NCBI GenBank assembly: GCA_005223085.1
Contig: NJBP01000038.1
Location: forward strand, 1 to 22,436
Source of the DNA: Candidatus Aerophobetes bacterium Ae_b3b
GTDB taxonomy: Bacteria > Aerophobota > Aerophobia > Aerophobales > AE-B3A
Direction: 5' to 3'
Length of the DNA: 22,436 bases
Part shown: positions 3,521-20,793 of the stretch, piece by piece
How positions within the stretch are numbered: position 1 is the first letter of the stretch
Layout of the letters: every line of letters starts with the position of its first letter
The notes under the pieces: generated by a model
What the model saw: only the letters and a program-made list of their open reading frames with translations
The model's database searches: none
Told to the model about the DNA's origin: nothing
Translations under genes and position numbers: made by a program

Positions 3521-3537
3521 TTAATTCTCCTTGACTG

Positions 3538-4902: not shown

Positions 4903-4913
4903 CGATGCCCCCT

Positions 4914-5999
4914 TTAAGAAGGTTTCTCTAACTTTTCTTCAGCTTTCTCGAGTTCGCCCCCTAAAGATTTAATAAACTGTCTCCTGGATAGATTAGCGTT
5001 AAAAAGTGCTTCCAGGGTATTTATATTGGCTTGAGTGAGTTCAATCTGAGAATCCAATAGATCAGTGGTGGTGATGAGTCCTGCCCTGTACTGAGCCTGG
5101 GCAATTCGATAGCTCTCATCTTTTTCTTCCGCCTGCTTTTTGGTGATCTGGGCGTTGGTCTCTTTCTCTTTTAAACTGAGGAAAGAGCTGGTGATCTCCA
5201 GAGGAATCGCGCTCATTAGCTGCTCCAGATTTGCCTCCTCTTTTTTAAGTTCTATTTCCGCCTTCTTTCGTTCAATTTCAGAGGTGTATTGGTTCTGCTT
5301 AAGACTCAATTTCAGTTTGGCAAACTCAAGACTATCCCCAGCCTCAATAATCTCGTACCTATTGTTCATAGCCTTTTGGATACTCTCTTCCAGGGTTATC
5401 TCCAATGTTTCCAAAGAAAAAGTATCAGTAAGTTTCACTGGTAGGTCCAGGGGTAGTCCCAGGACATAGTTGAGATTCATTCTGGCAATCATGAGGCTAT
5501 TTTGGGCTCGGATCAAGTCCAATTGGGCCTGGGAAAGTCCTACTTCGGCTTGCATGACGTCCAGCTCACTGGCATCTCCCAGAGCGAATTTATTTTTCAC
5601 CATCTCCAGGTTCTCCTTGCTTTGCTCAACCGAGATCTGTTCAATTTGCACTTTTTCCTCGTATTCCAAAACTTCAAAGTATCGGCTGGTTATCTCCTCC
5701 AGAGCCAACTGTTTCTTTTTCTCCTCAAAGTCATATTGAGCTCTCTTGAAGTTAAGTTCAGCATTTTTTAGGGTAACAATGGAGGTTCTGAGCAGATTAT
5801 TTATTTTAGCCTCCTGGAATTCTGTCTCCTTGAGGCTTAGATTATAAGCTACCTGTTTTAGATCAAGATTGTTCTCAAGGCCTATCACGATACTCTCCTC
5901 TAGACTTAACTGTCTCACTTTAGGTTCCTCGGCTCTGGAACTAAAGGAAGTTAGAGCAACCAACAATGCCACTGCGCCAAAAAGTGAGCTTTTTCTCAT
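4914..5999 (-). CDS. Short TolC-like protein apparently lacking the beta-barrel strands
   Basis: 361 residues with a signal peptide (about 1-23) and two TolC-type repeats opening with LSLEESIVIGLENNLDL and ITLEESIQKAMNNRYEI. Unlike its neighbour, the helices run on almost without break. Where the first barrel hairpin should be there is only KINNLLRTSIVTLKN, going straight into a Lys/Glu-rich coiled coil. In the second repeat the stretch LKLSLKQNQYTSEIERKKAE does the same. Typical OEP proteins are 420-490 residues; the missing length is about what four strands plus loops would need. It keeps the YRAGLITTTDLLDSQ-type end of the second repeat. ATG at 5997-5999 has AAAGGAGAGG upstream. It is the first gene after the promoter at 6038-6065. 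It may be a periplasmic partner of the full TolC protein, but its role is unknown. Confidence 0.8.
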   Translation of the reverse strand: MRKSSLFGAVALLVALTSFSSRAEEPKVRQLSLEESIVIGLENNLDLKQVAYNLSLKETEFQEAKINNLLRTSIVTLKNAELNFKRAQYDFEEKKKQLALEEITSRYFEVLEYEEKVQIEQISVEQSKENLEMVKNKFALGDASELDVMQAEVGLSQAQLDLIRAQNSLMIARMNLNYVLGLPLDLPVKLTDTFSLETLEITLEESIQKAMNNRYEIIEAGDSLEFAKLKLSLKQNQYTSEIERKKAEIELKKEEANLEQLMSAIPLEITSSFLSLKEKETNAQITKKQAEEKDESYRIAQAQYRAGLITTTDLLDSQIELTQANINTLEALFNANLSRRQFIKSLGGELEKAEEKLEKPS

Positions 6000-6037
6000 T
6001 CTGTCCTCTCCTTTTATTGGTTATTTACTATCTTATA

Positions 6038-6065
6038 ATTATGAACATATCTCAAATTATATCAA
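6038..6065 (-). promoter_or_regulatory. Candidate promoter of the TolC/MacA/ABC operon
   Basis: On the minus strand TTGATA (6060-6065) is followed after 16 nt by CATAAT (6038-6043). Both are 5-of-6 matches to the housekeeping consensus, in an A+T-rich stretch between the terminator at 6079-6109 and the first TolC-like gene. This implies the pump genes can be transcribed separately from the sigma-factor operon, or by read-through of the terminator. Confidence 0.5.
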
Positions 6066-6078
6066 GTCCCTGCCCTCG

Positions 6079-6109
6079 AAAAAAATCGGGGGAGGCTTCA
6101 CCCTCCCCC
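6079..6109 (-). terminator. Rho-independent terminator after the second LTxxQ gene
   Basis: The minus strand shows GGGGGAGG, a 6-nt loop, CCTCCCCC, then GA and seven T (A7 on plus at 6079-6085). It lies 21 nt past the stop of the 6131-6637 gene. A nearly identical terminator occurs at 8376-8406. Confidence 0.9.
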
Positions 6110-6130
6110 TTCATCGTTGACTATTTTCCG

Positions 6131-6637
6131 CTATCGCCAGCAGCCATGACCAGCCATAGCCCCTCTGCGACCCATAGCTCTGCCAAATCCCCGACCTAAA
6201 CCCAATCCGGGGAGCTTCTCGAGCTGCTCGCTGGTGAGAAGGCTTTTTAGCTTCAACCGGAATTCAATAGTTTTCTTCTGGATTTCAGCCTGAATGGGCG
6301 CCATCTCATCCACCAAGGCATAGACTGTGGTCAGATCGGGAGACTCCTCCAGGAGGAGTTTTTGGATCTCCAGCTTCTTTCTGGTAAGCTCCGTGCGCAG
6401 GTCTAAGGTCTCCTCTTTAAAGCTAAGCTTTAAATTAGCTATCTTCTCTTTCTGCTCTACGGTTAAGTTTAACCTGCTTGCCCGATCGACGGTGTGTTTT
6501 CCTGTCCAGTCCTTGCCGACGAATTTTCGGCCTTGGGAACGAGGGGTTTTAGTTCCCGAGCCGTAAGCGGCGGCGCTGCCAACCAATCCTGTTATCACCA
6601 AACCTGCTAGCAGTAAAACTAGCCATTTTTTTCTCAT
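6131..6637 (-). CDS. Secreted periplasmic LTxxQ protein (Spy/CpxP/ZraP-like)
   Basis: 168 residues from the ATG at 6635-6637, chosen over an in-frame ATG 39 nt upstream because AAAGGAGG lies 6-7 nt before it and it starts a good signal peptide (about 1-24, ending SAAAYG). The mature part is mostly helical. It has two LTxxQ motifs, LTVEQ (58-62) and LTSEQ (134-138), the mark of the Spy/CpxP/ZraP superfamily of periplasmic chaperones and metal-stress sensors. The tail is Gly/Arg-rich and ends with His and Cys (GHGCWR), a possible metal site. It follows the first LTxxQ gene by 35 nt, counted to this start, and is closed by a strong terminator. A decayed copy of its last 40 or so codons lies upstream of the sigma gene. 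Likely part of the sigma-factor-controlled stress response (inference). Confidence 0.82.
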   Translation of the reverse strand: MRKKWLVLLLAGLVITGLVGSAAAYGSGTKTPRSQGRKFVGKDWTGKHTVDRASRLNLTVEQKEKIANLKLSFKEETLDLRTELTRKKLEIQKLLLEESPDLTTVYALVDEMAPIQAEIQKKTIEFRLKLKSLLTSEQLEKLPGLGLGRGFGRAMGRRGAMAGHGCWR

Positions 6638-6672
6638 CACTAGCCTCCTTTTAAGATCTGTCTTTTCGACAG

Positions 6673-7131
6673 TCAAGATCTTCCTCTTTTAAATCTCATC
6701 CACGGCCTTCCAGGACGCAGCCTCTTTCTTATCAGGGAGAAAAACTTGGCCTGCTGCTCTGGAGTTAAGAGAGATCTTATCTCTACCAGATGATTTATCG
6801 TCTCTCTTTGAAGCTCGGCCTGAAGGGAGGCAATTTCACTCACCTTATTTGTGATTTCTTTCTCACTTGAGGGAGACTCTCCCAGGAGCTCACTTAATTC
6901 AGTTCTTCTTTGGCGAAGCTCAGTTCTGATCTTCTCTACCCTGGCATGAAATGATCGATCTAGGGACTCTATCTCCTTTTTTTGAGATTTAGATAGAGAA
7001 AGATAACTAGAGATAAAATCGACAGGGGATGGTCGTAAAGTTTCCTTCTTTAATAATCGAGGAATGTATAAGCCTAATAAAATGCCGCTAGCAAAGACAA
7101 CTACCAAAATGATGACTACTTTTTTTCTCAT
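6673..7131 (-). CDS. Membrane-anchored LTxxQ protein (Spy/CnrX-like heavy-metal/stress sensor family)
   Basis: 152 residues with an uncleaved-looking N-terminal membrane helix (about 5-23) and a helical periplasmic domain. LSKSQ (46-50) is a degenerate first motif and LTPEQ (122-126) a clear second one; the tail is Arg-rich. This matches the metal-resistance/Spy superfamily, whose anchored members (CnrX, NccX) hold an anti-sigma factor in check until a metal or misfolded protein appears. No Cys is present and there are only two His, so a CnrX-like metal site is not obvious. Its ATG overlaps the stop of the anti-sigma gene (ATGA at 7128-7131), implying translational coupling. The direct role as a regulator of the sigma/anti-sigma pair is inferred from position and family. 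Confidence 0.8.
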   Translation of the reverse strand: MRKKVVIILVVVFASGILLGLYIPRLLKKETLRPSPVDFISSYLSLSKSQKKEIESLDRSFHARVEKIRTELRQRRTELSELLGESPSSEKEITNKVSEIASLQAELQRETINHLVEIRSLLTPEQQAKFFSLIRKRLRPGRPWMRFKRGRS

Positions 7132-7607
7132 CCGTTTTCTACCTCCTCTGCGCTAGCTAAGTTAAGGTAAATTTCGGGGAGAGAACCTGTAGGAAGGTCT
7201 TGAAAACTGTCTAATCCGATTGAAGTTAAATACCTTTCTTCTTTTAATTTAACAGTTTCAGAGGGTATGATCTTCTCCACAGAGCTCCCCACAAGAACCC
7301 CTATGATCAAAACGGCAGCAACTGCCGCTGGTAAGATGAGGTGAACCAGCCGCCCAAAAATAGCTTGAGGCAGAAGCTGCCTTTTTTCTAAGGAATAAAT
7401 CCTCTCCCGGAGACTGGCCTCAAAACCTTGAGAGGGCTTCAGGCGCTGCTGATCTTTAAGAAGATAAAAACTCTTGTTTAATAAATCTGCCTCTTTCTTG
7501 CATTGACGACATTTCGTGAGATGCTCCTTTATTGAAAGCTTTTGCTTTTCCTCAAGCTCCCCATCTAGATAAGCTACCAATTTGCGTCTTAGTCTCTTGC
7601 ACTTCAT
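7128..7607 (-). CDS. Anti-sigma factor with zinc-finger (ZAS) domain and one membrane helix
   Basis: 159 residues from the ATG at 7605-7607. Upstream in-frame codons overlap the end of the sigma gene and are not needed: the ZAS domain begins right at MKCKRLRRKLVAYLDGEL. The zinc motif is His29-x3-Cys33-x2-Cys36 (EHLTKCRQC), with Cys3 as a possible fourth ligand. A linker leads to one transmembrane helix (about 87-108), and a periplasmic tail of about 50 residues could be sensed or cleaved. The ribosome site AGAGAG is weak. It lies 32 nt after the sigma gene and overlaps the membrane-anchored LTxxQ gene by 4 nt. The order sigma / anti-sigma / periplasmic sensor is typical of ECF circuits such as CnrYXH. 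Confidence 0.88.
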   Translation of the reverse strand: MKCKRLRRKLVAYLDGELEEKQKLSIKEHLTKCRQCKKEADLLNKSFYLLKDQQRLKPSQGFEASLRERIYSLEKRQLLPQAIFGRLVHLILPAAVAAVLIIGVLVGSSVEKIIPSETVKLKEERYLTSIGLDSFQDLPTGSLPEIYLNLASAEEVENG

Positions 7608-7639
7608 GTTACTCTCTATTAATATAAACACGGAATTTG

Positions 7640-8242
7640 TTAAAAACCCCCGCTGCTTTCGACTGTTAAGTAGGAACTGAGCCTTTCTTTTAAATTTGTT
7701 CTTGCCCAATAGAGACGCCTCTCCACGCTCTTTACCGAACAACCTAGGATTCTGGAGATCTCTTTATAAGAGAGTCCTTCATATATCTGAAGAATGGTAG
7801 CCATCCTTTGCTTGGCCGGTAAAGAATCAATCGCCTTTCTTATTAATGCATTTCTTTCTTTTTTTTCCAAAATCTGCTGAGGTGAAGGAGCAGCATCGGC
7901 AATTTTCTCGATCAACTCCTCCTCTTTTTCTTCTCCTGCTGAAATAGGTTTACTCAGCGAGACAGTCTGAACCTTTGCCTTTTTCCTTATTTCGTTGAGA
8001 CAAAGATTGGTAGTAATCTTGTATAACCAGGTAGTAAATTTTGCCTTTGCTTGGTACTTTTTTGCTGCCCGGTATACTCTTAAGAAAACTTCAACAGCTA
8101 AATCTTCTGCCTCATCTCTCTCACCAATAAATTGATAGATAATATTTATAATGCTCTCTTTGTGCTTTTGCACGAGTTTTTCAAAGGAGGAAATATCACC
8201 CTTTTGAAACTCCAGCATTAAACTGACATCGGAATCCAGCAT
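7640..8242 (-). CDS. ECF-family RNA polymerase sigma factor (RpoE-like)
   Basis: 200 residues. Region sigma-2 lies at about 20-90 with DEAEDLAVEVFLRVYRAA and the -10-binding stretch FTTWLYKITTNLCLNEIRKK. An acidic linker (about 100-130) follows, then region sigma-4 at about 138-190 with LPAKQRMATILQIYEGLSYK and a helix-turn-helix (ISRILGCSVKSVERRLYWAR). The ATG at 8240-8242 follows AGAGAGAAGG, whose spacing is short. It heads the operon with the ZAS anti-sigma factor and two LTxxQ proteins. I could not find a convincing ECF-type (AAC / GTC) promoter pair shared by this gene and the pump operon, so the regulon cannot be read from sequence alone. Confidence 0.93.
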   Translation of the reverse strand: MLDSDVSLMLEFQKGDISSFEKLVQKHKESIINIIYQFIGERDEAEDLAVEVFLRVYRAAKKYQAKAKFTTWLYKITTNLCLNEIRKKAKVQTVSLSKPISAGEEKEEELIEKIADAAPSPQQILEKKERNALIRKAIDSLPAKQRMATILQIYEGLSYKEISRILGCSVKSVERRLYWARTNLKERLSSYLTVESSGGF

Positions 8243-8722: not shown

Positions 8723-10222
8723 CTACAAGATGAGTTCTTTTAAGGCAGGATAAATCTTCAGATAATTCTGGTATCTCTCCATATACTGTGAATGCTGCTT
8801 CATATCCGGTCCAAATATTTTATTAATCTTTACCCAATGCCCCGCCCCTTCTTGTGGAGAGTCAAAATTATTTATGCTTACACCGGCTAAAATTGCTGCT
8901 CCCAGGGAAGCAGCCTCAGAAACCTTGAGAGTACATACTCTCTTGCCTAAAACGTCGGCCCTGAGTTGAAGCCATCTTTCAGACTTTGCCCCTCCTCCAA
9001 TTGCCCGAATTTCCTCCCAAGGAATACCCGCCTCCTGGAGTTTATCCATATTTAACCTAAGATCATAATTATTACTGTCCAACATAGCTCTGGATACATC
9101 CTGTTTAGTAGTATCTAAAGTGAGCCCCAAAATAGCACCTTTGGACTTAGAACTTAGAGTAGGGGTTCCACTTCCCACAAAATGGGGAAGAATATACACA
9201 TCCACTGGTTCGGGACTTGCCTTCTCCACTATTACATCATATACATCCTGGCCGGTCCTCTCAGCTTCCATCTTTTCCTCAAAACAGAAAGTATCTCTGT
9301 ACCATCTAAGCAGGAGACCTCCAGTAAGATTAAAGGAAATAGTGATATATATATCTGGGCAGGTATGAGGATAACAGCAGTAGTTACTCTCCAGCATTTT
9401 CCTAGTTAAAAGTGGCTCTTTAATAGCAGGGCATAGTACGTCTGATGTGCCAATGGCATTCATAACCAGACCCGGAGAAACCACTCCTGCTCCTAATGCT
9501 CCACAGGGTTGATCGTGTCCCCCGGTGGCAACTACCACATCCCTTCTTAGACCGAGTTCTTCAGCTACTCTTTTATTAACTTTACCTAGCGGGTATCCAG
9601 AAGGTCTAGGTTCCGCCAAAAGCTCTTGACTCACTCCTGCAAATGATAGAATCTTTTCCGACCATTTTTTTTCTCTTATATCAAAGCACATAGTCCTTGC
9701 GGCAAGAGAATAATCAATAGTAGGAAAGACCCCAAGTTTAGATATAACAAAATCCTCAACACATAGAAACTTCCAAGCTTTACGGTAGATATCTGGTTGA
9801 TTCTCTTTCATCCACATTATCTTATTTATAGTGTACATGGGGTGTAGAGGCATTCCGGTAATTTGAAAGATCTCTTCTTTACCCATTCTTTCCTGCCACC
9901 ATTGATATTGGGGTTCGGTTCGCTTATCAAAGGAGATGATAAAATTATAAAGAGGTTGACCATCTCTGCTTACGGGAACTACAGCTTCTCCCTGAGTGGA
10001 TACACTTAAAGCCTTAATTGGATCAGAACGAGTCTGGGTCGCTACCTCAAAGACCACCTGTTTTATTTTATCCCACAGAAGATTTGCATCTAGTTCCGTC
10101 CAACCCGGTTTAGGGTGAAAAAGAGGATACTCACGATAAGCCTGGGAAAGGATATTGCCCCCCTTATCAAAGGCTACTGCTTTACACCCTGTGGTACCAA
10201 TATCAAGACCTACCAAGCTCAT
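8723..10222 (-). CDS. FGGY-family carbohydrate kinase (xylulokinase-like)
   Basis: 499 residues, the usual FGGY length. The N-terminal phosphate-binding loop is GLDIGTTGCKA (Asp7). A substrate-side motif SVSTQGEAVVPVSRDG lies at 73-88. The catalytic Asp237 sits in ATGGHDQPCGALGAG, and the C-terminal adenosine loop is AIGGGAKSERWLQLRADVLG (about 407-426). The family phosphorylates ketoses, polyols or related compounds with ATP. TQGEA in place of the SGQMHG motif of true XylB argues against a plain D-xylulose kinase. ATG at 10220-10222 has GAGG upstream. It is the last gene of the cupin/E1/RuBisCO-like/dehydrogenase cluster, 76 nt after the second dehydrogenase. Its substrate is probably the entry sugar of that pathway (inference). 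No strong terminator was seen behind it. Confidence 0.88.
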   Translation of the reverse strand: MSLVGLDIGTTGCKAVAFDKGGNILSQAYREYPLFHPKPGWTELDANLLWDKIKQVVFEVATQTRSDPIKALSVSTQGEAVVPVSRDGQPLYNFIISFDKRTEPQYQWWQERMGKEEIFQITGMPLHPMYTINKIMWMKENQPDIYRKAWKFLCVEDFVISKLGVFPTIDYSLAARTMCFDIREKKWSEKILSFAGVSQELLAEPRPSGYPLGKVNKRVAEELGLRRDVVVATGGHDQPCGALGAGVVSPGLVMNAIGTSDVLCPAIKEPLLTRKMLESNYCCYPHTCPDIYITISFNLTGGLLLRWYRDTFCFEEKMEAERTGQDVYDVIVEKASPEPVDVYILPHFVGSGTPTLSSKSKGAILGLTLDTTKQDVSRAMLDSNNYDLRLNMDKLQEAGIPWEEIRAIGGGAKSERWLQLRADVLGKRVCTLKVSEAASLGAAILAGVSINNFDSPQEGAGHWVKINKIFGPDMKQHSQYMERYQNYLKIYPALKELIL

Positions 10223-10298
10223 TTTATCCTCTACCGCTCTGGCCCAGACCCCAGTTCTTCTCTTTTGGATAACATGGTCTACCTTTCAGAGTTATAGC

Positions 10299-11342
10299 TT
10301 AAAGGTTAGGATTAACAAAGATTTTAAGTCCTTTTCTTTCCTCTGCCAGCTTTATTGCCTGGAGAAAATCAGACAAACCCAGTCGGTAGCTTACATATTC
10401 CTTAGCCTTGATCTTACCAGAGACAATCATATCCAGAGCTATTTTGCACTGACGGGTGGAACAGCCGTGAGTTCCAATCACAAAGGCTTCCTTGTAGTGA
10501 ATCAGGTTAGAGTTAAATTTTATGAAAGGGCTGTCTTTGGGTAGACCTCCAAATAAATTCACATTTCCCCGTTTAGCAACTATCTCGAGAGCCTGTTGTT
10601 GAGCCTCACCTGAGCCACAGGCAACTATCACCACATCTGCTCCTCTTCTCTCAGTCTCTTGCATGACCCTTTCTACCACGTCCTCCCTCAAGGGACTAAT
10701 GTAGACATTGGCTCCGGTGAATTCAGCTTGCTTAAGTCTGGGTAAAGACCTTTGAACCAGTATTATTTTCTGTGCTCCAAAAGCTCTGCACACTTCCACA
10801 TTGAGACATCCAACAGGTCCTGCTCCTATTACAACTACCACATCCCCTACCTTTACCCGAGAAAGCTCACAGGCATTTATAGCGCAGGAAGCTGGATCAA
10901 TCAAAGCTGCCTCTTCAAAAGAGACACCTTTTAGAATAGGTATTACGCATCTCTGCTTGACAGCTTGAAGTGGAATCATTACATATTGGGCAAACCCTCC
11001 ATCTCGATGAACACCTATAGTTTGCAGTCTATCACAGGAGGTCTGCATGCCTCTCTCACAGTAAAAACAGGTCCCGCAGGGAATATTTGGAGCTATCACC
11101 ACTCTCTCTCCTTCGCGGTAACCTTGGATGCCCTCCCCTACCTGAGCTATGGTACCTGCCAGTTCATGCCCGGGGATTAAGGGTAGCTTAGCTGCAGAGT
11201 AACCATACTTATACATTTTTACATCTGTACCACAGATTGCACAGGTCTCAACCTTTACTGTAAGACCTCCTCTGGGAGGCTGAGGATCGGGAACCTCTCT
11301 TAGCTCAAAATTTTCAACCCCGGTTAAGAGGGCTGCTTTCAA
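10299..11342 (-). CDS. Zinc-dependent MDR alcohol/polyol dehydrogenase (second of pair)
   Basis: 347 residues of the medium-chain dehydrogenase family. Catalytic zinc residues are Cys37 (CAICGTD) and His59-Glu60 (PGHE). The structural zinc lobe has Cys89, 92, 95 and 103 (PCGTCFYCERGMQTSC). The NAD(P) Rossmann motif is VIGAGPVG (171-178). The set fits the sorbitol/threonine/galactitol-phosphate dehydrogenase branch that oxidises a secondary alcohol. The start is TTG at 11340-11342 with AGGAGG 6 nt before it; no ATG fits as well. It is only distantly similar to the preceding dehydrogenase, so the pair probably acts on two different intermediates. The gap to the previous gene is 47 nt and the direction is the same. 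Confidence 0.87.
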   Translation of the reverse strand: MKAALLTGVENFELREVPDPQPPRGGLTVKVETCAICGTDVKMYKYGYSAAKLPLIPGHELAGTIAQVGEGIQGYREGERVVIAPNIPCGTCFYCERGMQTSCDRLQTIGVHRDGGFAQYVMIPLQAVKQRCVIPILKGVSFEEAALIDPASCAINACELSRVKVGDVVVVIGAGPVGCLNVEVCRAFGAQKIILVQRSLPRLKQAEFTGANVYISPLREDVVERVMQETERRGADVVIVACGSGEAQQQALEIVAKRGNVNLFGGLPKDSPFIKFNSNLIHYKEAFVIGTHGCSTRQCKIALDMIVSGKIKAKEYVSYRLGLSDFLQAIKLAEERKGLKIFVNPNL

Positions 11343-11389
11343 ATCTTACCTCCTGGAAGAATCAAAAATTTTTAGCATTTTTCCCTTAT

Positions 11390-12442
11390 TCAAGGAGAGA
11401 AAATTATCTTGTTATATATCATCTTCCCTTCATACATCTTTTTGAATGTCTCAGCAATGTCTTCAAGCTTTACTCGGTGAGATATAAGGGGCTTTGCCTT
11501 GATTGCTCTGGCGGCCATAAACTGCACACTGATCTTCCACTCGTTGTCCAAAGGAGAAAAATTTGAATTGACCGCTCCATAAACCTCAAGTTCTCTACGG
11601 AAGATTCTGGTAAAAACTTCATCTGGCAACAAAACGTCCGAGTAGGATCTGCCAATAAGGATAACTTTTGCCCTTTTGCGAGCTATGAGGAGGGATTGTC
11701 TTTGAGTGGCAGTTGAACCAGCAGTTTCCATTACCACATCTGCTCCTTTACCCTTTGTTTCCTCCATAACCTTTTCTACTACATCTTCCTTCTCTGCATT
11801 TATGCAAACATCTACCCCTAACTCCCTCGCTATTTTCAATTTATCTTCTATGATATCCACTGCTACCACCTTACCTGCTCCCATGGCCACAGCCCATTGA
11901 CAGGCCAACATCCCTATGGGGCCTGTTCCAAGTATAACTACACTTTGACCTGGCCTTATTCCTCCTGCTCGTTTAATACCATGTAGAGCCACACAGGCCG
12001 GATCAGTCATGGCTCCCTCGTCAAAGTCTACCTCTTTTGGAAGTCGTACCAGATTTACCACTGGTATTTTAACGTATTCAGCAAAGGCTCCATGAGATCT
12101 AGAACCCAGATAATCGTAATCCTCACACAAGTTATACTGACCCTGCAGACACCATTCACACCTCATGCAGGGTATTAAGGGGTAAGCGGTAACTCTATCC
12201 CCTACCTTGAAAGAGGTAGCTTTTTCTCCAATTTTGGCTATTTCTCCAGAGAACTCGTGTCCCGGTATACAGGGAAAAACATGGGTTCCTTCTACCATAA
12301 TTCGTTGTAGATCCGATCCACAGTTTCCTGCTGCTTTTACTTTAAGTAAAACATCATTTGGTCCAATTTTGGGAACCTCTACCTCTTCGCATCTTAAATC
12401 ACCCGGGGCGTGAAGAACTGCCGCCATCATCTTCTCTTCCAT
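11390..12442 (-). CDS. Zinc-dependent MDR dehydrogenase, galactitol-1-phosphate 5-dehydrogenase-like
   Basis: 350 residues. Catalytic zinc residues are Cys41 (NCGSDL) and His62-Glu63 (PGHEFSG). Structural zinc cysteines are 92, 95, 98 and 106. The Rossmann motif is LGTGPIGMLA (171-180). Several stretches recall Escherichia coli GatD from memory: CGSDL-RI, GHEFSG-I, YD-LGSR--G-FAEY, and a late N-SP---EW motif. GatD oxidises a sugar-alcohol phosphate to a ketose phosphate. A phosphorylated polyol or sugar acid is therefore a sensible substrate, with the FGGY kinase providing the phosphate (inference). ATG at 12440-12442 follows GGAGGTTCTTA. It lies 13 nt after the RuBisCO-like gene, so the two are surely cotranscribed. 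Confidence 0.87.
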   Translation of the reverse strand: MEEKMMAAVLHAPGDLRCEEVEVPKIGPNDVLLKVKAAGNCGSDLQRIMVEGTHVFPCIPGHEFSGEIAKIGEKATSFKVGDRVTAYPLIPCMRCEWCLQGQYNLCEDYDYLGSRSHGAFAEYVKIPVVNLVRLPKEVDFDEGAMTDPACVALHGIKRAGGIRPGQSVVILGTGPIGMLACQWAVAMGAGKVVAVDIIEDKLKIARELGVDVCINAEKEDVVEKVMEETKGKGADVVMETAGSTATQRQSLLIARKRAKVILIGRSYSDVLLPDEVFTRIFRRELEVYGAVNSNFSPLDNEWKISVQFMAARAIKAKPLISHRVKLEDIAETFKKMYEGKMIYNKIIFSP

Positions 12443-12455
12443 TAAGAACCTCCGT

Positions 12456-13613
12456 TCAGCTTTTCAATCCCATCTTTTGCTTGAGAGCTCGCAATTTCCT
12501 GGCTGAACTTCCCTCATCTTTGTAGATACCTATGTGGTCTAAAAACAGGGTATCATCTCCATAAAAATCATAGTATTCGGCCATATTTTCAAGGCTGATA
12601 CCAGAAACTACAGGCCAGGTGGCCCTTATTGAAGAGAGTTTCCTTAAGATATCCACATACCTGGCCACCTTTTTTTGTGCTTTTTCAGATTTTCCCCAGA
12701 TCCCCCCCACATGAGAAAAGTCAGCTCCCAGCATCCGGAAGAGTTTGGTGAAAATCTCATAAGAAATACTTAAATTCCCAGAACAGAAAAGACCGTAACC
12801 TACTCTATGTACATAAATGGGGCAAGAAAAATTTTTCTTTAGATAATCTATACTGGATAAACCTATGCAGAAGGGGTCAATCATCAGCCCATTTGCACCG
12901 GAGGAGATAGCTATCTCTGCCGCCTTACCTAAAGTGGAAAAATCAGAGGTAACGTTGGCCATATAAAGCATTTTTCGTCCGGAGTGATGCTGAATTTTAT
13001 CTAAAGTCTGAGCCACCAGTTTTGCCCTCTGCTTCAGTAGACAGATATCGGGATTTACACATACCTCATCATCCTTTACAAAGTCAAATCCAGCTTTAGC
13101 TAAAATAGAAACCACCTCTGCTGTTCTTTCTGGATTCAAACCTAAATTTGGCTTTATGATAGCCCCTATTAGGGGTCTATCCTTTACTTTCAAGAGTTCT
13201 CTTATTCCCTCAATTCCAAACTGAGGGCCCTTATAATGGTGCACGAAAGACGAAGGAAGCTCAAGCTCCAGAAATTTTGCTCCTCCTATGAAGTAAAGAC
13301 TAAATACCTCGCCAGCTACCATGGCCCAAAGATTAGATATGCCACCCAAGCCCGGGTCAATATTGGTAGCAGGGAAAGATAGTTTAATTATGTAAGTACC
13401 CTCATCTTGCTCCTCGATAGACAGGATCTCTCCTTTAATTGAGTCATCTATGAAAGGCAGCTTATCTTCACACTTGTACATCTTTACCCCTTTACGGGTG
13501 GATATATACTGCATCCCACTTGTCATCTCAGCTAGGAGCAGATCAGCCGCTTTGTGAATAGATTCTACTTTAGGGGTTAACTGGTAAGTCACCATGATAT
13601 TTTCCTGTGTCAA
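12456..13613 (-). CDS. RuBisCO-like protein (form IV-type RuBisCO large-subunit homologue)
   Basis: 385 residues with a RuBisCO N-terminal domain (about 8-135) and a TIM barrel (about 145-380). By motif alignment to spinach RuBisCO it keeps Lys175 (K154, GAIIKPNLGL) and Lys201/Asp203/Glu204 (K180, D182, E183 in FVKDDE, the carbamate and magnesium site). It also keeps His294-Arg295 (H269-R270), His327 (H301), loop-6 Lys334 (K308, GGIWGKSE) and Ser379 (S337). It lacks the Thr65-Trp66 pair, Asn123 (Glu102), Lys177 (Asn156), Gly381 (Ile339) and the Gly403-Gly404 phosphate loop (LFLDHIG here). It is thus not a carbon-fixing RuBisCO, but could carry out enolisation or decarboxylation on a different substrate. 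The start is TTG at 13611-13613 with AAAGGAG 8 nt upstream; an ATG 18 nt inside lacks a site. It follows E1-beta after 228 nt. Confidence 0.9.
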   Translation of the reverse strand: MTQENIMVTYQLTPKVESIHKAADLLLAEMTSGMQYISTRKGVKMYKCEDKLPFIDDSIKGEILSIEEQDEGTYIIKLSFPATNIDPGLGGISNLWAMVAGEVFSLYFIGGAKFLELELPSSFVHHYKGPQFGIEGIRELLKVKDRPLIGAIIKPNLGLNPERTAEVVSILAKAGFDFVKDDEVCVNPDICLLKQRAKLVAQTLDKIQHHSGRKMLYMANVTSDFSTLGKAAEIAISSGANGLMIDPFCIGLSSIDYLKKNFSCPIYVHRVGYGLFCSGNLSISYEIFTKLFRMLGADFSHVGGIWGKSEKAQKKVARYVDILRKLSSIRATWPVVSGISLENMAEYYDFYGDDTLFLDHIGIYKDEGSSARKLRALKQKMGLKS

Positions 13614-13841
13614 TTTTTTACTCCTTTAAGTTTTACTAATAAAGTGTTATGTAATCTTGATTCGGGGTTCCAAAGGGAAGAAGATGAGCAGGTTTTCAAC
13701 TCACACAGAACTCATTTCACCTCATAAGTTTGTCAATCCATTACATTTTTCTTTCAACTTTCCTTTCTAAAAATCCTTGTTTTCCTTGGAAATTCTGGTT
13801 CATTTTCACCCTATTAAATCGGGCTCTTAAATCGTCCTAAT
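13614..13841. other. 228-nt gap upstream of the RuBisCO-like gene
   Basis: This is the only long gap inside the catabolic cluster. On the minus strand it has a perfect TTGACA (13731-13736) but no good -10 at the right distance, an inverted repeat TTTCC-TT-GGAAA near 13790, and a short direct repeat of TTAAATCG near 13815-13835. A separate promoter or operator for the RuBisCO-like, dehydrogenase and kinase genes is possible but not shown. No terminator hairpin was seen. Confidence 0.35.
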
Positions 13842-14819
13842 TTAGAAATTTCTTAAGCTTTTTATGGCTATTTTAATATCTTCTTTTTGTGGGATAACAA
13901 AATCTTCCAATACCGGAGCCATGGGAATAGGAACATCCTTGGTTGCCAACCTTTTGACTGGAGCATCTAGATAATCGAAGGCTTCCTCACTTATCCGCGC
14001 AGCTATTTCTGCCCCTGGGCCACAGGTAAGAACTGCTTCATGAACAATTAGCACTCGTCCTGTCTTCTTCACAGATTCGTAGATCGTTTCCATATCTAAG
14101 GGATTCAGCGTTCTCGGATCAATTACTTCAACGCTTATTCCTTCTTGCTCCAGTTCCTCGGCAACGGATAAGGATTTTATGACCATCTCCGCCGTAGCTA
14201 TCAAAGTGACATCCCTACCTTCTTTTTTTACATCAGCTCTGCCAAAGGAAATGGAATACGAATTCTCGGGAACAGGACCTTTTGAGTCATAAAGACAGCG
14301 GTGCTCGAAGTATATCACGGGATTATCATCTAGGATTGCTGTCTTTAAAAGCCCCTTTGCATCATAAGGAGTGGAAGGGATAACTAGCTTCAGCCCTGGA
14401 GTATGCATAAATAGAGCTTCATTAGACTGAGAGTGGTGAGCAGCAGCAGAAAGTCCTGCTCCCAGAATTGTGCGAATAGTAAGTGGAACCTTTACCTGAC
14501 CTCCAAACATGTATCTCATCTTAGCAGCTTGATTGATTATCTGATCTCCAGCCAGGGGCAGAAAATCACAAAACATTATTTCAGTAATAGGTCGCAGTCC
14601 AGCCATTGCTGCACCAGTAGCCGCACCTACGATGGCAACTTCTGAAATGGGAGTATTTCTTACTCTTTTCCTGCCATATTTATCGAAAAGACCTTTGGTC
14701 ACGGTAAATGCTCCTCCCAGTGGTCCAATATCCTCGCCCATCAAAAACACTTTTGCATCGGACCTTAAAGCCTCATCAAGAGCCTCTCTAATTGCTTCTC
14801 GAAAGGTGATTTCTCTCAT
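13842..14819 (-). CDS. Thiamine-diphosphate-dependent dehydrogenase E1 beta subunit (AcoB/PdhB type)
   Basis: 325 residues. It begins MREITFREAIREALDEAL, as 2-oxoacid and acetoin dehydrogenase beta subunits do, and continues with VFLMGEDIGPLGGAF, NTPISEVAIVGAATGAAM and the active-site stretch AAHHSQSNEALFMHTPG. The C-terminal transketolase domain has VIDPRTLNPLD and VLIVHEAV. I use the ATG at 14817-14819, not an in-frame codon 72 nt upstream, because the family starts here, GGGAGG lies 5 nt before it, and the stop of E1-alpha ends one base before. With E1-alpha it should form an alpha2beta2 enzyme that decarboxylates a 2-oxoacid or cleaves a hydroxyketone. No E2 or E3 gene is in the window, so the fate of the thiamine-bound intermediate is open. 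Confidence 0.92.
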   Translation of the reverse strand: MREITFREAIREALDEALRSDAKVFLMGEDIGPLGGAFTVTKGLFDKYGRKRVRNTPISEVAIVGAATGAAMAGLRPITEIMFCDFLPLAGDQIINQAAKMRYMFGGQVKVPLTIRTILGAGLSAAAHHSQSNEALFMHTPGLKLVIPSTPYDAKGLLKTAILDDNPVIYFEHRCLYDSKGPVPENSYSISFGRADVKKEGRDVTLIATAEMVIKSLSVAEELEQEGISVEVIDPRTLNPLDMETIYESVKKTGRVLIVHEAVLTCGPGAEIAARISEEAFDYLDAPVKRLATKDVPIPMAPVLEDFVIPQKEDIKIAIKSLRNF

Positions 14820-14820
14820 A

Positions 14821-15792
14821 TTAACCTCCCTGCTCCACATAGAGGTCTTCCAGGGCTGACTCTGGTCTAGGCGGGGGACTAGCTTGAGCATACTTCACAG
14901 CATCTTTTATCTCATCTTCAATTTTCTTTTCTACAAAGGAGATTTCCTTGGACTGTATAATATCATTTTCCAACAAATACTTCTTAAACTTTTTTAGGGG
15001 GTCTCTCTTTTTCCATTCCTTGACTTCTTCTTTTGTACGGTAAACTTCGGGGTCCCCCTCCCAATGTCCTCTGTAGCGATAAGTTTTACATTCAACTAAA
15101 GTTGGACCCCTTCCAGCTCTAGCCCTTTCTACTGCTTTGTTGGTCTCCTCATAAACAGCAAGGACATCATTACCATCAATAATCACTCCCGGCATATTGT
15201 AAGACTTAGCCCTATCAGCAATATCTCTAATAGGCTGATGATCAGCCTGGGGTGTAGTCTCTGCATAGAGATTATTCTCGCAAACGTAAACTACAGGAAG
15301 CTTCCAGAGTGAAGCTAGATTAAGAGATTCATGAAAACCACCTTGATTAGAGGCACCATCCCCAAAAAAACAGACAGTTACCCTTCCATCCTCAAGATAC
15401 TGGGAGGCGAGAGCAGTTCCAGTAGCAATGGGTATGCCTCCCCCCACTATCCCATTAGCTCCCAGGATACCAATGGAGAAATCAGCAATATGCATGGAGC
15501 CTCCTTTACCTTTGCAATATCCTGTCTCTTTACCATAAAGTTCGGCCATCATCCTCTTAAGATCAGCCCCCTTAGCAATGCAGTGGCCATGCCCCCGATG
15601 AGTACTGGTAATATAGTCATCCCGATTAAGGCTAGCACATACCCCTACAGCTACTGCTTCTTCACCAATATAACTATGCAGCCAACCGGGAAGCTCTTTA
15701 TTATGAAAGAGTTTAACTGCCTCTTGCTCAAAACGACGGATTTTGTACATAGATGCATAAAGACCTGCTAGAAAGTTCCTTTTGTTTTCCAT
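14821..15792 (-). CDS. Thiamine-diphosphate-dependent dehydrogenase E1 alpha subunit (AcoA/PdhA type)
   Basis: 323 residues. The thiamine-diphosphate/magnesium motif starts at GDGASNQG (144-151) and ends at CENN (171-174). Other family stretches are TSTHRGHGHCIAKG (62-75), GKGGSMHIAD (96-104) and a late loop YRYRGHWEGDPEVYR, which corresponds to the phosphorylation loop of mitochondrial E1. Its lack of long insertions and the E(N)NLYAETTP form are closer to acetoin-dehydrogenase E1 than to the single-chain PDH E1. ATG at 15790-15792 follows AGGAGG 7 nt upstream. It lies 26 nt after the cupin gene and 1 nt before E1-beta. Substrate not identifiable from sequence. Confidence 0.92.
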   Translation of the reverse strand: MENKRNFLAGLYASMYKIRRFEQEAVKLFHNKELPGWLHSYIGEEAVAVGVCASLNRDDYITSTHRGHGHCIAKGADLKRMMAELYGKETGYCKGKGGSMHIADFSIGILGANGIVGGGIPIATGTALASQYLEDGRVTVCFFGDGASNQGGFHESLNLASLWKLPVVYVCENNLYAETTPQADHQPIRDIADRAKSYNMPGVIIDGNDVLAVYEETNKAVERARAGRGPTLVECKTYRYRGHWEGDPEVYRTKEEVKEWKKRDPLKKFKKYLLENDIIQSKEISFVEKKIEDEIKDAVKYAQASPPPRPESALEDLYVEQGG

Positions 15793-15818
15793 TATCCAGC
15801 CTCCTAAGAAACGTTCAT

Positions 15819-16772
15819 CTACGCCTGTAGACGCCCCGTGAACCGTACAGGCTTCTTGGTGTACGCGATCTCGGTTCCTCTTTCTTCAGTGGACCATAAA
15901 GAAGGAGCAATAATAGTTAGAACTTGAACATTTTCGTTGCCAAAGTTAAATCCCTGATGCCAAATATTTTTAGGAATTAAAAAAGCCTCATCTTTTTTAA
16001 TCTCGTAGGTTCTGCCTGTATCGGGATTAGTTAGAATTAAAGTTCCTTTCCTAACATAATAGAACTCATCTCCTGTATGGATATCGGGAGGAGAAAATTT
16101 GGCTCCCGGACAAATCCAGTAGTCACTTAAGGTGATTTCATCGGTACTTATATAAATGTAGCACCTTATTTCATCAGGTTCTCTGCCATATATCATAGAA
16201 ATTGCATCTTGCTTTCTAAGAACGGCTGGCTTCTTTTCTTCAGGAGAAAAAGGATATTTGCCTTGCCAGGAGGGGATCGAGAGCCCGAACTCTGGCTCAT
16301 CCTTTGCTCTATTTTCATCCTCTCTACTTTGAATGATAGAGTTGCTGTTCTTCCAGGAAGCCACAGCCAATAAAAACTCAATAGGTTCATCGTCGAAATT
16401 AAAGTAACGGTGTTTTAGTCCCCTCGGAATTAAAAATTTCTCATCCTCATAAATGAGGTAGCCCTCGTTGATAACCGATGTCTTACTAGCTCTATTGTTG
16501 TAAATTCGGGTATTCAGGGTACCCTTCAAAACGTAAATTACCTCATCCCCATTATGCACTTCAATATCAGAGCTTCCCTTGGCTGGGATGACCATTTTAC
16601 CAACATGGAAAAGATCATTGCTCACATAAAAATCAATTCTTGTGTTATTTTTCTTACCATGGATGAATCTTAAAATTTTCTCCCTGGGGATATAGACTCC
16701 CTCTTTCATTTTCTCCAATTCTTCTCGTGGAAATGGCCATTGACCAAGTAAGTCCAATTCATTTCCCATCAT
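15819..16772 (-). CDS. Tandem two-domain cupin protein
   Basis: 317 residues with two cupin barrels. The first has EVHNGDEVIYVLKGTLN (about 91-107) and LIPRGLKHRYFN. The second has PDIHTGDEFYYVRKGTLI and LIPKNIWHQGFNFG. Each keeps the His-x3-Glu and later His that bind a metal, so both sites could be active. Bicupins include sugar isomerases (the KduI/IolB class), dioxygenases and decarboxylases. Being first in a sugar cluster makes an isomerase or ring-opening enzyme the best guess, but the sequence does not decide. Two adjacent ATGs are possible: 16770-16772 (3 nt after GAGGAG) and 16767-16769 (6 nt, better spacing). It heads the cluster of seven genes facing away from the MoxR/VWA operon. 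Confidence 0.82.
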   Translation of the reverse strand: MMGNELDLLGQWPFPREELEKMKEGVYIPREKILRFIHGKKNNTRIDFYVSNDLFHVGKMVIPAKGSSDIEVHNGDEVIYVLKGTLNTRIYNNRASKTSVINEGYLIYEDEKFLIPRGLKHRYFNFDDEPIEFLLAVASWKNSNSIIQSREDENRAKDEPEFGLSIPSWQGKYPFSPEEKKPAVLRKQDAISMIYGREPDEIRCYIYISTDEITLSDYWICPGAKFSPPDIHTGDEFYYVRKGTLILTNPDTGRTYEIKKDEAFLIPKNIWHQGFNFGNENVQVLTIIAPSLWSTEERGTEIAYTKKPVRFTGRLQA

Positions 16773-17123: not shown

Positions 17124-18932
17124 ATGTGGGCTAATTTAATAAAAGAAATAAAAGAGCTTTCTCAAGCCAGAGTTTACAAAAACTCTACCGAGGTCTGCCG
17201 ACTGAGGGGGGTTTCATTCACTGTCTGGGACGTTATCACAGCAGCCATTATCTCCGGGCTCAATATCCTGGTGGTGGGAGAAAAAGGAGAGGGAAAGACT
17301 CAGCTTGCCGTTGATGTTAATAACAGTCTTTTTGGAGGAAGAGGCACCTTTATCAGAGCTCATCCTGATCTTAAAACCAGAGATATTTATACTTCTCTCA
17401 ATCTGGAAACCTTGGCCTCTGGTAAGGGAGATACCCACCAGGCTTTAGAATTATCCGAATCGATTAAAAATCCTTTAACCATCCTTGATGAAATAAATCG
17501 TGTCCCTCAGATTACCCAAAATCAAGCTCTGAGTATTCTCGATGGGTACATTAGTCTTCCAGAGAAAAGCGCCCGGTTCTTTTTCGGAATTGACGGATAT
17601 CACATTGGCCTGGCCACGGCAAATTTAACTAAAGGATATGGAGGAACTTTCCCCTTTGATCCGGCCTATCTAGATAGATCTCACCTCATTTTGAACGTAG
17701 ATAACTTTCCTCCCGGAACTACAGATTTAATAGAAATTCAACAGCAGGATACCACCCCCCGGGTCATATCACCTGAGCTTGAGGACTCTACTGATAAAAT
17801 CATCCGAACATGGCAGCTAATGAAAAACCTCAAACTTTCCCTCGATGGTCTCATGGCTGATTTATACCTCAAAAGAAGCCTGGACTACTGTGACAGGTCC
17901 CCTACCGGGAGAAAAAGTACGGTGAGAGACGATATTCCTGCTATGTGTCAGGGGTGCTTATCTGAAGGAAAAGCCACCGTGATGGGAGACGTTTGTGCCT
18001 ATGTCATTCCTGCCACCACCAGAACTTTCAAGGCCTTTAAAGCCTTAGCTTTTGGGCTTACTGCCGTCTCTCAAGCCAAATCGGAAACTTCGGTTAACGA
18101 GCTTCCCGGGTACCTGGAGATTCTCCAGGCCTTTAGACTTACCGCACCTTATTCCGGGATCCTTGATTCGTCCTGGGTAAAAAGTCAACATCACGGTAAT
18201 CCCTATCTTGCTTCTGATTTTCTTTACCGGAAAATAAAGTCCGAGCTGGAAGAAAAAGCTGATTATATAAAGAAAGCATTTTACGATGCTCTATCCGGAA
18301 CCCTTGCTCACGAAGAAGTGAAAGTATTAGGGGAAGAATGGGGATGGCTCGAGGAGATACTGACTGAAATTAATAAAATCAGCCGAAGTAGTCCAAAACC
18401 TCTGGTGGAGGAAATCAAAGAGGGAAAAGTTTTGGCTACTAATCAGATCTGGCTCGAGGATCTTCTTTGGCCCGAGCAGACTATCTTTGGAGAAAAAATA
18501 ACCGATCTTAAGCCAGGAGAAAAAATAAGTAAAAAGATAAGTGATAGATTAGGAAGTATGTACGGCATAGCTTTTGCCACTGAGAACGGCATCTATGCCT
18601 GGTATGAAAATTTAAGTAAGCCCAGGAAAATCTTTGATCTTGAGCGTGGGAAATTTCGAAGAAAGCGCATCACTGGCTTAGCTTTGGTGGAAGGAAAGCT
18701 CGTTTTTTCCACCGGACGCGAGATTTACCAGGTAGAAAACCCCCAGGAACCTTTGATAACTTCCGATCGTTCACTGCAGGCTTTAGCCCAGAGCGGTGAT
18801 TCCTTGGTAGGAGCAGAAGAAAGAAAAATATGGATAAAGAAAAAAGGTGGGGACCAGCAAACTACCATTTTTTTGGAGAAAAAGGTCACGGCCCTGGCAA
18901 GTGTTCCGATTTATCAATTAAAAGAGTTATAG
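17124..18932 (+). CDS. MoxR-type AAA+ ATPase with C-terminal repeat domain
   Basis: 602 residues, much longer than the usual 300-350 of MoxR proteins. The AAA+ core shows Walker A GEKGEGKT (52-59), Walker B LTILDE (118-123), sensor-1 Asn167 (LATANLTKG), a likely arginine finger in AYLDRSHLIL (Arg185) and a sensor-2-like PATTR (Arg300). An insertion carries four cysteines (256, 275, 278, 291; one CxxC), a possible zinc or iron-sulfur site. After a helical part (about 370-470), the last 110 residues repeat a propeller-like unit three to four times (YGIAFATENGIYAWYE; ITGLALVEGKLVFSTGREIY; LQALAQSGDSLVGAEERKIW). MoxR ATPases act with VWA proteins as chaperones that insert metals or assemble complexes. 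Its stop is 1 nt before the VWA gene. No clear ribosome site precedes the ATG. Confidence 0.88.
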   Translation: MWANLIKEIKELSQARVYKNSTEVCRLRGVSFTVWDVITAAIISGLNILVVGEKGEGKTQLAVDVNNSLFGGRGTFIRAHPDLKTRDIYTSLNLETLASGKGDTHQALELSESIKNPLTILDEINRVPQITQNQALSILDGYISLPEKSARFFFGIDGYHIGLATANLTKGYGGTFPFDPAYLDRSHLILNVDNFPPGTTDLIEIQQQDTTPRVISPELEDSTDKIIRTWQLMKNLKLSLDGLMADLYLKRSLDYCDRSPTGRKSTVRDDIPAMCQGCLSEGKATVMGDVCAYVIPATTRTFKAFKALAFGLTAVSQAKSETSVNELPGYLEILQAFRLTAPYSGILDSSWVKSQHHGNPYLASDFLYRKIKSELEEKADYIKKAFYDALSGTLAHEEVKVLGEEWGWLEEILTEINKISRSSPKPLVEEIKEGKVLATNQIWLEDLLWPEQTIFGEKITDLKPGEKISKKISDRLGSMYGIAFATENGIYAWYENLSKPRKIFDLERGKFRRKRITGLALVEGKLVFSTGREIYQVENPQEPLITSDRSLQALAQSGDSLVGAEERKIWIKKKGGDQQTTIFLEKKVTALASVPIYQLKEL

Positions 18933-18933
18933 G

Positions 18934-20793
18934 ATGGATTATAAGAGACTCGAGCGCGAGCTTTGCAGTATCAATAATCTCCTGGGATCAAGTGAAATAA
19001 TAGTAAAGGTCTTTCCCTTAAAACCTTCTCGTGGTCACCTTGCGGCGAGGCTATCTTCTCAAAACGAGATGCAGGTAAGCATTGATGAAGACTGGGATAT
19101 CTCCCAGGATTCAGTGCTTACCCGCTATCTTGGCCGGGGATACCATGAACATCCCCTTTTGGAGATAGGTGAGGATCTACTCTGTAATCAAATCGCCCAT
19201 CACCAGATTTGCCCCCGCAATATGGAGTTCCATCATCAAATCCTGGAGGGAGTCGGTCAAGCAATAGGGGAGCAAGAGAAAAAATCGTGCATAGAATACC
19301 TTACTCATGCCTTTGAGGATGTAATAGCTAACGCATGGTGTAAGCTAAATTTTTCTCACTTTAAAGGAATGCCCGCTTTCTTTTACGATCAGGCTTACCT
19401 TCCTCCATCGGTGACCCGGACCTTCAAGGATCGCATCATGGAGATCCTTTTTTCTCCCAGGTTCTCCCCCCTTTATGAGGCCTTTGTCAAGATAAATCTT
19501 CTCACGTGGGGAGACGAAGAAGACCTTCACTTAGCTCGGAGGCGCTTTACCGACAGAAAATCTATCAAAGCGGCAGTTAATAAGGTAATGAAAATCCTGA
19601 ACCTCCAGGGTGGGTCTCTTGAGCACAAGGTGGATATTTTTTCCAGAAACCACAATTGGCAGCAGCTTGCTTTTAAATTCAGCCTTGGTCTAAGGAGCCT
19701 TTTAGAAGGAAAACCAAAGGAAGAGCTAAGTTCGGATAATCAATACCAGAGAAATACGATCAATCCAGCGCTAAGGAAAAGAATAGTTAAAACAATGTAT
19801 GAGAACAAGAGAAAACCCAGTTATCTTACCAGTTTTGAAATAACCAGAACGCTATATGAGATTCTTTCTCCAGAAATCCCTATGCAGGTGGATACCCAAA
19901 AAAGAGGAAGTACCATGCCCCTGGTTCCCTTTAATTACGAGGCTTTTGATCCTGAGCGGCATTCACGAGAGGATATCGATTTATACGGGTTGGCAGTTGA
20001 TCCAGAAAGTCCTTTTTTTGAGCTGATAAACTTCCGAGTTCCTAGATACCACTATGATCTCTTCATTCCCTATAAACCGGAAAGAAAAGGGGCTTTTCCT
20101 GATATCTGCTTTCTCATAGATACCTCAGCCTCTATGGCCAATGATATACAAAGCAAAATTTCTCCCCAGACCCTTTCTTTGGCCAGCGAAATGATGAAGC
20201 ATCGTTTCTATTTTGGAGAGGGTAATTATTCCTGGAGCAATAAGAGTAAGTATCATCACGTCGTGCTCGGCTTTACTGGAGCCTTAAAGTGGCTTAGATC
20301 CTGCGGGATAGCTCCTTACATTGAGTACAATTTGATAACTTTTTCCAGGAATACTCTGGCCACGGGATGGAAAAATTACCAGGAGATAGATGATTGTAGA
20401 AGATTGGCCTATCTTCCTGAGTTTAATACTACCCTTCTGGAGGCCGAGGTATTAGGTGAGGAGCTTCTTAACCGGCCTTTCTTGGTTATGATTATCCTCA
20501 CCGATGGGGAAATATTCAACTGGAATGAATCCACCAAAGGATATGCTCCTCACCGCTTAAGAAATCTGGTAAAGCCCATGAAGCCGGTGAGCCTTATTAT
20601 GAAAGAGATTGTGGAAAAGAATATGGTTTCGCACATTCAAATCAGTGAGGGGGATTTTAAACCCCGAATTTCTGATCTGACCTGCCGCGACCTACAAAAA
20701 TGGGGAGCAGAGATTCACCGAATAAACGACATTGCCAGCCTAGAGACCCTCATGATAAATCTCACTCAAAAGGCCATGGCCCCTTATCTTTGA
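18934..20793 (+). CDS. VWA-domain protein with an N-terminal zincin-like region, partner of the MoxR ATPase
   Basis: 619 residues. The C-terminal VWA domain (about 388-600) has a complete MIDAS metal site: Asp396-x-Ser398-x-Ser400 (LIDTSAS), a Thr at 499/500 (FNTTLLEAE) and Asp524 (LTDGE). The N-terminal 200 residues include NQIAHHQICPRNMEFHH (85-101) and FEDVIANAW (127-135). They look like the metallopeptidase-type domain that sits before VWA in related proteins (from memory), but the HExxH position reads NQIAH, so the domain is probably not catalytic. The middle (200-380) is unrecognised and charged. No signal peptide or membrane helix is seen; it should be cytoplasmic. Its ATG is 1 nt after the MoxR stop, so translation is coupled. 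The target of the ATPase/VWA pair is unknown. It shows no sequence tie to the divergent sugar cluster. Confidence 0.87.
   Translation: MDYKRLERELCSINNLLGSSEIIVKVFPLKPSRGHLAARLSSQNEMQVSIDEDWDISQDSVLTRYLGRGYHEHPLLEIGEDLLCNQIAHHQICPRNMEFHHQILEGVGQAIGEQEKKSCIEYLTHAFEDVIANAWCKLNFSHFKGMPAFFYDQAYLPPSVTRTFKDRIMEILFSPRFSPLYEAFVKINLLTWGDEEDLHLARRRFTDRKSIKAAVNKVMKILNLQGGSLEHKVDIFSRNHNWQQLAFKFSLGLRSLLEGKPKEELSSDNQYQRNTINPALRKRIVKTMYENKRKPSYLTSFEITRTLYEILSPEIPMQVDTQKRGSTMPLVPFNYEAFDPERHSREDIDLYGLAVDPESPFFELINFRVPRYHYDLFIPYKPERKGAFPDICFLIDTSASMANDIQSKISPQTLSLASEMMKHRFYFGEGNYSWSNKSKYHHVVLGFTGALKWLRSCGIAPYIEYNLITFSRNTLATGWKNYQEIDDCRRLAYLPEFNTTLLEAEVLGEELLNRPFLVMIILTDGEIFNWNESTKGYAPHRLRNLVKPMKPVSLIMKEIVEKNMVSHIQISEGDFKPRISDLTCRDLQKWGAEIHRINDIASLETLMINLTQKAMAPYL

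Follow-up and report, generated by a model that had tools for sequence, protein, structure and literature searches.

To our knowledge, only a handful of reactions have been assigned to RuBisCO-like proteins (RLPs). The described RLP systems closest to the locus reported here are those of D-apiose catabolism, methionine salvage and the Rhodospirillum methylthioadenosine (MTA)-isoprenoid shunt. In D-apiose catabolism, OiaX is a 3-oxo-isoapionate-4-phosphate decarboxylase, and OiaX-type RLPs are linked to a four-carbon acid sugar (DUF1537) kinase, which adjoined the RLP in all eight plasmid loci compared. In methionine salvage, MtnW acts as a 2,3-diketo-5-methylthiopentyl-1-phosphate enolase. In the shunt, known from R. 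rubrum and R. palustris (PMC5893883), an RLP and a cupin yield 1-deoxy-D-xylulose 5-phosphate (DXP). The locus in question is a seven-gene cluster at positions 8723-16772, - strand, of contig NJBP01000038.1 of Candidatus Aerophobetes bacterium Ae_b3b. The window is this complete contig (C23; 22,436 bp); its genome (G000) comprised 2.04 Mb in 86 contigs and was estimated to be 88.6% complete with 0.42% contamination. An earlier note, made from the sequence alone, had described a collinear set of seven genes in a carbohydrate cluster: bicupin, E1-alpha, E1-beta, RLP, two medium-chain dehydrogenases/reductases (MDR1 and MDR2) and an FGGY kinase. All seven open reading frames were present and collinear, the family of each was backed by Pfam and NCBIfam, and the carbohydrate assignment was borne out.

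The RLP (385 aa; 12456..13613, - strand; PF00016 5.7e-37) has a TTG start with GGAG upstream. A contig scan of the genome collection revealed two close relatives: one in a Ca. Aerophobetes contig (L005; 81% identity) and one in a short contig of a Spirochaetes metagenome-assembled genome (L006; 64%). All other RLPs were at ~30% identity or less. A further RLP fragment (78% identity) was found in contig L098 of G002, a genome from the window's family, and no orthologue was found in the viral contigs searched. In trees, the three complete RLPs grouped together (100/100), and the stem of their clade was very long, at 1.8-2.0 changes per site. Approximately unbiased (AU) tests rejected grouping of this clade with OiaX/DUF1537 RLPs (p 0.0003) and with MtnW-like RLPs (p 0.0005), and grouping with true RuBisCOs was not rejected (p 0.28). 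The exact position of the clade is uncertain because of the long branches, and the tree held no DeepYkr (R. rubrum-type) reference. The RLP also scored far under all curated NCBIfam RuBisCO cut-offs: 173 vs 438 bits for NF003252, 173.5 vs 497 for TIGR03326, 159.9 vs 700 for the OiaX model NF042437, and 101 vs 513.6 for the MtnW model TIGR03332. Membership in the OiaX or MtnW groups was ruled out by the AU tests and these cut-offs. By sequence, the window RLP belongs to a new deep clade outside the characterized clades included in the tests, which supports the interpretation of the earlier note. The sequence-nearest solved chain was 3nwr, which is also the nearest to OiaX. An AlphaFold2 model (mean predicted local distance difference test score, pLDDT, 72) adopted the RuBisCO fold, and archaeal form III structures were its closest matches.

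Spinach numbering was assigned to the active-site residues by way of an aligned form I reference. The RLP clade retained E60, K175, K201, D203, E204, H294, R295, H327, K334, and S379 (T in L006), a set made up of the RuBisCO metal/catalytic core and the P2 phosphate site (R295, H327, S379). Replaced in the clade were T65, W66 and G403/G404 (M, Q and HI in the window RLP), N123 (to E) and H298 (to Y). The shorter C-terminus of the clade makes the alignment at ~380-404 less secure. The residues lost include most of the P1 phosphate site (T65, W66, G403/G404) and a residue needed for carboxylation. Compared with CO2-fixing RuBisCOs (forms I-III), the window RLP had K175, K201, D203, E204, H294, and K334 and lacked N123 and a full pair of phosphate sites. 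Since the P1 site and N123 were lost and the P2 site and Mg/carbamate core kept, the protein is predicted to be a monophosphate-enolizing enzyme rather than a carboxylase, with the monophosphate held at the P2 side (R295/H327/S379). It probably does not fix CO2; a true carboxylase was considered and discounted, given the loss of N123 and the P1 site. The other two RLPs of the window's genome showed the opposite pattern: P1 residues were kept and R295/H327 were lost.

The RLP is followed by MDR1 (11390..12442, - strand), which is GatD-like (NF007642 GatD, 273 bits, cut-off 550; nearest solved structure 4a2c, GatD), by MDR2 (10299..11342, - strand), which is threonine-3-dehydrogenase/IolM-like (NF003808, 193 bits; NF041097 IolM, 192 bits; both below cut-off), and by an FGGY carbohydrate kinase (8723..10222, - strand), which is xylulokinase-like (PF00370 4.4e-62; PF02782; TIGR01312 XylB, 328.8 bits vs cut-off 380.25). 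The kinase and both MDRs were under all equivalog cut-offs, so no substrate can be assigned from them. Gene order in the orthologous loci was as follows: TIM-barrel isomerase, Gfo/Idh/MocA dehydrogenase, RLP, MDR1, MDR2 and kinase start in L005; RLP, MDR1, MDR2, histidine phosphatase and TIM-barrel isomerase in L006; TIM-barrel isomerase, Gfo/Idh/MocA and RLP (cut) in L098. Both MDR1 and MDR2 had orthologues at 81% identity in L005 and 68% in L006, and the end of the L005 contig carried the start of a kinase orthologue (73% over 30 aa). RLP-MDR1-MDR2 was kept in the window, L005 and L006, all three of the loci in which that side was sequenced; the kinase was present in two of three informative loci (window and L005). 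In another bacterial family (L161), adjacent MDR1-like (46%) and MDR2-like (48%) genes lay in the same order downstream of a different-clade RLP. The conserved unit is RLP-MDR1-MDR2, often with the kinase. Neither outcome that the earlier note had named as refuting its proposal, a neighborhood unique to one genome or an RLP inside a known clade, was found: the core recurs and the clade is separate.

Upstream of the RLP lies an E1 pair. E1-alpha (14821..15792, - strand), a thiamine pyrophosphate (TPP)-dependent 2-oxoacid/acyloin dehydrogenase subunit (PF00676 6.6e-95; TIGR03182, 397.3 bits vs cut-off 393.85), carries the GDG...NN TPP motif. E1-beta (13842..14891, - strand; PF02779 and PF02780; NF006667, 378.8 bits vs cut-off 321) as listed overlaps E1-alpha by 71 nt; its true start is probably later, near MREITFREAI. 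Apart from one fused E1, the window's genome contained three E1-alpha genes, all of them unfused. Each of these three adjoined an RLP, and each of the three RLPs of the genome, which come from different clades, adjoined an E1 pair. Under random scatter the chance of this 3/3 adjacency is ~6e-6 (hand arithmetic: four E1 genes, 4-kb reach, 2.04 Mb), a figure that overstates the case because catabolic genes cluster. An E1 pair also adjoined one RLP in the sister species (G001, of the same genus) and one in a distant family (G336), where the cluster included a lipoyl E2. Altogether, an E1 pair stood beside the RLP in 4 of 10 RLP loci of the order and in 1 of ~35 other loci examined, both counts being lower bounds because several contigs were short. 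On the E1-alpha tree, RLP adjacency required four changes, at least three of them forced by well-supported branches; this calls for no fewer than three separate recruitments and ruled out a single co-inherited lineage of RLP-linked E1s.

A complete pyruvate dehydrogenase (PDH) or acetoin complex in the cluster was ruled out, as neither E2 nor E3 was found there. The single E2 gene of the window's genome was located on contig C37 (L233, 6561-7733), away from all three RLP clusters, with equivalents in L234-L246, and an E3 over the curated cut-off was located on contig C29. The order was sampled with 17 genomes, the window's and 16 relatives. A PF00198 (E2) match was present in 14 of these: 13 had exactly one and G014 had two. 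E2 was usually found at a housekeeping locus upstream of riboflavin synthesis genes, and E1 pairs were numerous and scattered; E2 adjoined E1 in G004, G012, and for the second copy of G014. A usually single E2 per genome, many E1 pairs and the E3 in the window's genome make it likely that a shared E2/E3 core serves several E1 pairs. A literature search, mainly of openly available papers with subscription papers mostly not covered, found no description of an RLP-E1 cluster, which is weak evidence of absence.

The first gene of the cluster encodes a bicupin (317 aa; 15819..16772, - strand) with two Cupin_2 stretches (PF07883 2.9e-22). Homologues at 34-37% identity were found on rhizobial plasmids, and none was found in the other loci compared. 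On an Agrobacterium plasmid, tandem cupin genes lay beside a ribose-type ABC transporter, an L-ribulose-5-P 4-epimerase and a ribulokinase. These relatives in a pentose cluster favor a sugar-isomerase role, for which the bicupin is a candidate. By sequence, the only PDB match was a weak one to RemF, and a single-sequence structure prediction (mean pLDDT 35) was not used for fold inference. Intergenic gaps in the cluster were 13-76 nt, with the exception of 228 nt between E1-beta and the RLP. Consensus matching alone placed a promoter-like site upstream of the cupin gene (17028-17000, - strand; 11/12 matches) and two terminator-like stems downstream of the kinase gene (8446-8385, - strand). The same matching found neither kind of site on the - strand of the 228-nt gap, so a single transcription unit of seven genes is plausible.

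From the gene content, RLP clade, active-site pattern, synteny, and E2/E3 genes elsewhere in the genome, all seen directly, we infer each reaction and its order. An aldose would be isomerized by the bicupin, and the ketose or a polyol would be phosphorylated by the FGGY kinase. The two MDRs would oxidize secondary hydroxyls to give an oxo (3-oxo or vicinal di-oxo) sugar monophosphate. With its RuBisCO-type Mg-carbamate site, the RLP would enolize this compound with decarboxylation or isomerization, the phosphate sitting in the R295/H327/S379 pocket, and would thereby form an alpha-hydroxyketone (acyloin) or a 2-oxoacid. In this strain, TPP-dependent cleavage of that product by E1-alpha/beta would supply an acyl group to the only E2 encoded in the genome and to E3, so that acyl-CoA and NADH are formed. 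We tentatively read the cluster as an operon that catabolizes a sugar, polyol or sugar acid and in which the RLP step leads to an acyloin or 2-oxoacid cleaved by E1. A new pathway is plausible. More speculative is an undescribed design in which several RLP clades each make an acyloin or oxo-sugar phosphate, every such locus has its own TPP-dependent E1 pair to cleave it, and one E2/E3 core is fed by all of them; the window RLP would then have a new function, binding its monophosphate only through R295/H327/S379.

Several observations weigh against this operon reading. The proposal that the seven genes recur as a fixed set held only for the core: E1-alpha, E1-beta and the bicupin were missing beside the orthologous RLPs where that side is sequenced (L005 and L098; L006 has one truncated gene upstream of the RLP). 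E1 nonetheless recurred beside non-orthologous RLPs. The orthologue set is small, with three complete proteins and one fragment. Sugar clusters of the same order that had no RLP often contained E1 pairs, so the RLP-E1 link is suggestive only, and the adjacency may reflect a general use of E1 in the lineage. One product common to the three RLPs of the genome is not obvious because they differ in clade and active site, and E1 may act without E2. The window held no transporter or regulator hinting at a substrate. In a rival view, two independent modules lie side by side, RLP-MDR-MDR-kinase being complete without E1 and cupin-E1-alpha-E1-beta serving another substrate. The 228-nt gap that separates E1-beta from the RLP agrees with this, as do the orthologous loci without E1 and cupin and the many E1 pairs in RLP-free clusters; against it stand the E1 pairs beside RLPs of three clades in one genome, repeated in G001 and G336, and a gap in which no terminator- or promoter-like site was found on the - strand. 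Two modules are a serious possibility, though a doubtful one, and nearly as good an account as the seven-gene pathway, which is itself possible.

The operon reading was also weighed against two routes modeled on known RLPs. An OiaX-like route, as in apiose oxidation, would have the RLP decarboxylate a 3-oxo-acid phosphate, with the FGGY kinase replacing the DUF1537 kinase and E1 handling a later 2-oxoacid. The common nearest structure 3nwr, the common H294-R295, H327, K334 pattern, and the Gfo/Idh/MocA dehydrogenase beside the RLP in L005 and L098 are in its favor, but the AU test rejected a common clade, the OiaX model score was far below cut-off, no DUF1537 kinase was among the window proteins, and the P1 site was lost, which makes this route unlikely. 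In a route like that of Rhodospirillum rubrum, the RLP would isomerize a 1-substituted pentulose phosphate, the cupin would strip the substituent to leave a 1-deoxyketose phosphate (e.g., DXP), and E1 would cleave it or make the acyloin. The precedent of an RLP and cupin giving DXP (PMC5893883) speaks for it, as do two observations on PDH (PMC3424233): mutant E. coli PDH E1 gives rise to DXP, and 1-deoxyxylulose is a product of purified PDH. In this lineage and on rhizobial plasmids, E1 pairs adjoined genes for DRL (the DXP-reductoisomerase family), and no DXS over the curated cut-off was found in the window's genome. This route is nonetheless improbable: the usual residues of the P1 phosphate site are missing from the window RLP, the cupin partner is of the bicupin type and has relatives in an ordinary pentose cluster, the window has no DRL gene, and the R. 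rubrum RLP itself was not in the tree.

Two genomes of the window's family had a DRL-family gene immediately ahead of E1-alpha/E1-beta (L197 10513-14081 in G002:C20; L198 313-3793 in G005:C37), and a rhizobial plasmid had the same arrangement together with E2 and E3 (L258 6603-11246). The only DRL of G002 was of the kind preceding an E1 pair. That E1 acts on DXP-type acyloins is a testable idea. Among the 17 genomes of the order, 12 had no DXS over the curated cut-off and 16 had IspG. DRL occurred in ten and canonical DXR in six, never both in one genome. In L271 193-3357 (G000:C19) and L272 1728-4868 (G013:C243), a DRL (DXR-II family) gene came immediately after split transketolase-like N and C genes. 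The operon so formed is a candidate to stand in for the missing DXS, a question that PMC10663253 leaves open.

Other RLP contexts were also observed. One-clade RLPs adjoined a LeuA/homocitrate-synthase-like protein in L161, L163, L164, and L165, followed by a GlcD-like FAD protein in L161 and L163; this may be a further RLP context that has not been described. Split transketolase genes neighbored RLPs whose metal motif has the variant form KDDH/KDDY in L175 5089-8575, L176 7412-10551, L178 7205-10265, and L179 7512-10570. Within the window, 17124-20793, which diverges from the cluster, encodes an AAA_5 (MoxR-like) ATPase and then a protein whose CFLIDTSASMA stretch has a VWA-type DxSxS motif. 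A single run at 454-8242 encodes an ECF sigma factor, a zinc-finger anti-sigma factor, two LTXXQ/metal-resistance periplasmic proteins, two TolC-like proteins, HlyD, and a MacB-type ABC exporter.

With its depth, its clear, half-dismantled active site and its conserved partners, the new RLP clade is a direct place to look for a further RLP reaction, and it bears on how chemistry of the RuBisCO type becomes diverse. A real E1 link would tie RLP chemistry to the formation of acyl-CoA. Isoprenoid biosynthesis has a gap in the same genomes, where no DXS is recognizable and an operon is a candidate replacement.

Overall, the cluster had features of several known systems. Like AcoAB/PdhAB, the E1 pair has both subunits and the TPP motif and passed the TIGR03182 and NF006667 cut-offs; unlike them, it lies in a cluster without E2/E3, in an order with usually one distant E2 gene and many E1 pairs per genome. 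The MDRs have the zinc MDR fold of GatD, IolM and threonine 3-dehydrogenase, with polyol or sugar-phosphate dehydrogenases as relatives, but fell under all NCBIfam equivalog cut-offs. OiaX/DUF1537-linked RLPs have in common with the window RLP K175, K201-D203-E204, H294-R295, H327, K334, and S379 and a sugar-acid cluster with dehydrogenases; the window RLP differs in its separate clade, in the replacement of T65/W66/G403/G404 and N123, in the presence of a bicupin and E1 pair, and in its FGGY kinase. MtnW is likewise an RLP with an expected monophosphate enolization, whereas MtnW-like proteins keep W66/G403/G404 without R295/H327, the reverse of the window RLP, and the MtnX-like HAD phosphatase is absent from the window cluster. 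The Rhodospirillum shunt, with its DeepYkr RLP and cupin methylthioxylulose 5-phosphate (MTXu-5-P) methylsulfurylase, differs from a locus with a bicupin, two MDRs, an FGGY kinase and an E1 pair, and no DeepYkr reference stood in the tree for comparison. Both, however, combine an RLP and a cupin in one locus, and the product class of the shunt, a 1-deoxyketose phosphate, would suit a TPP-dependent E1.

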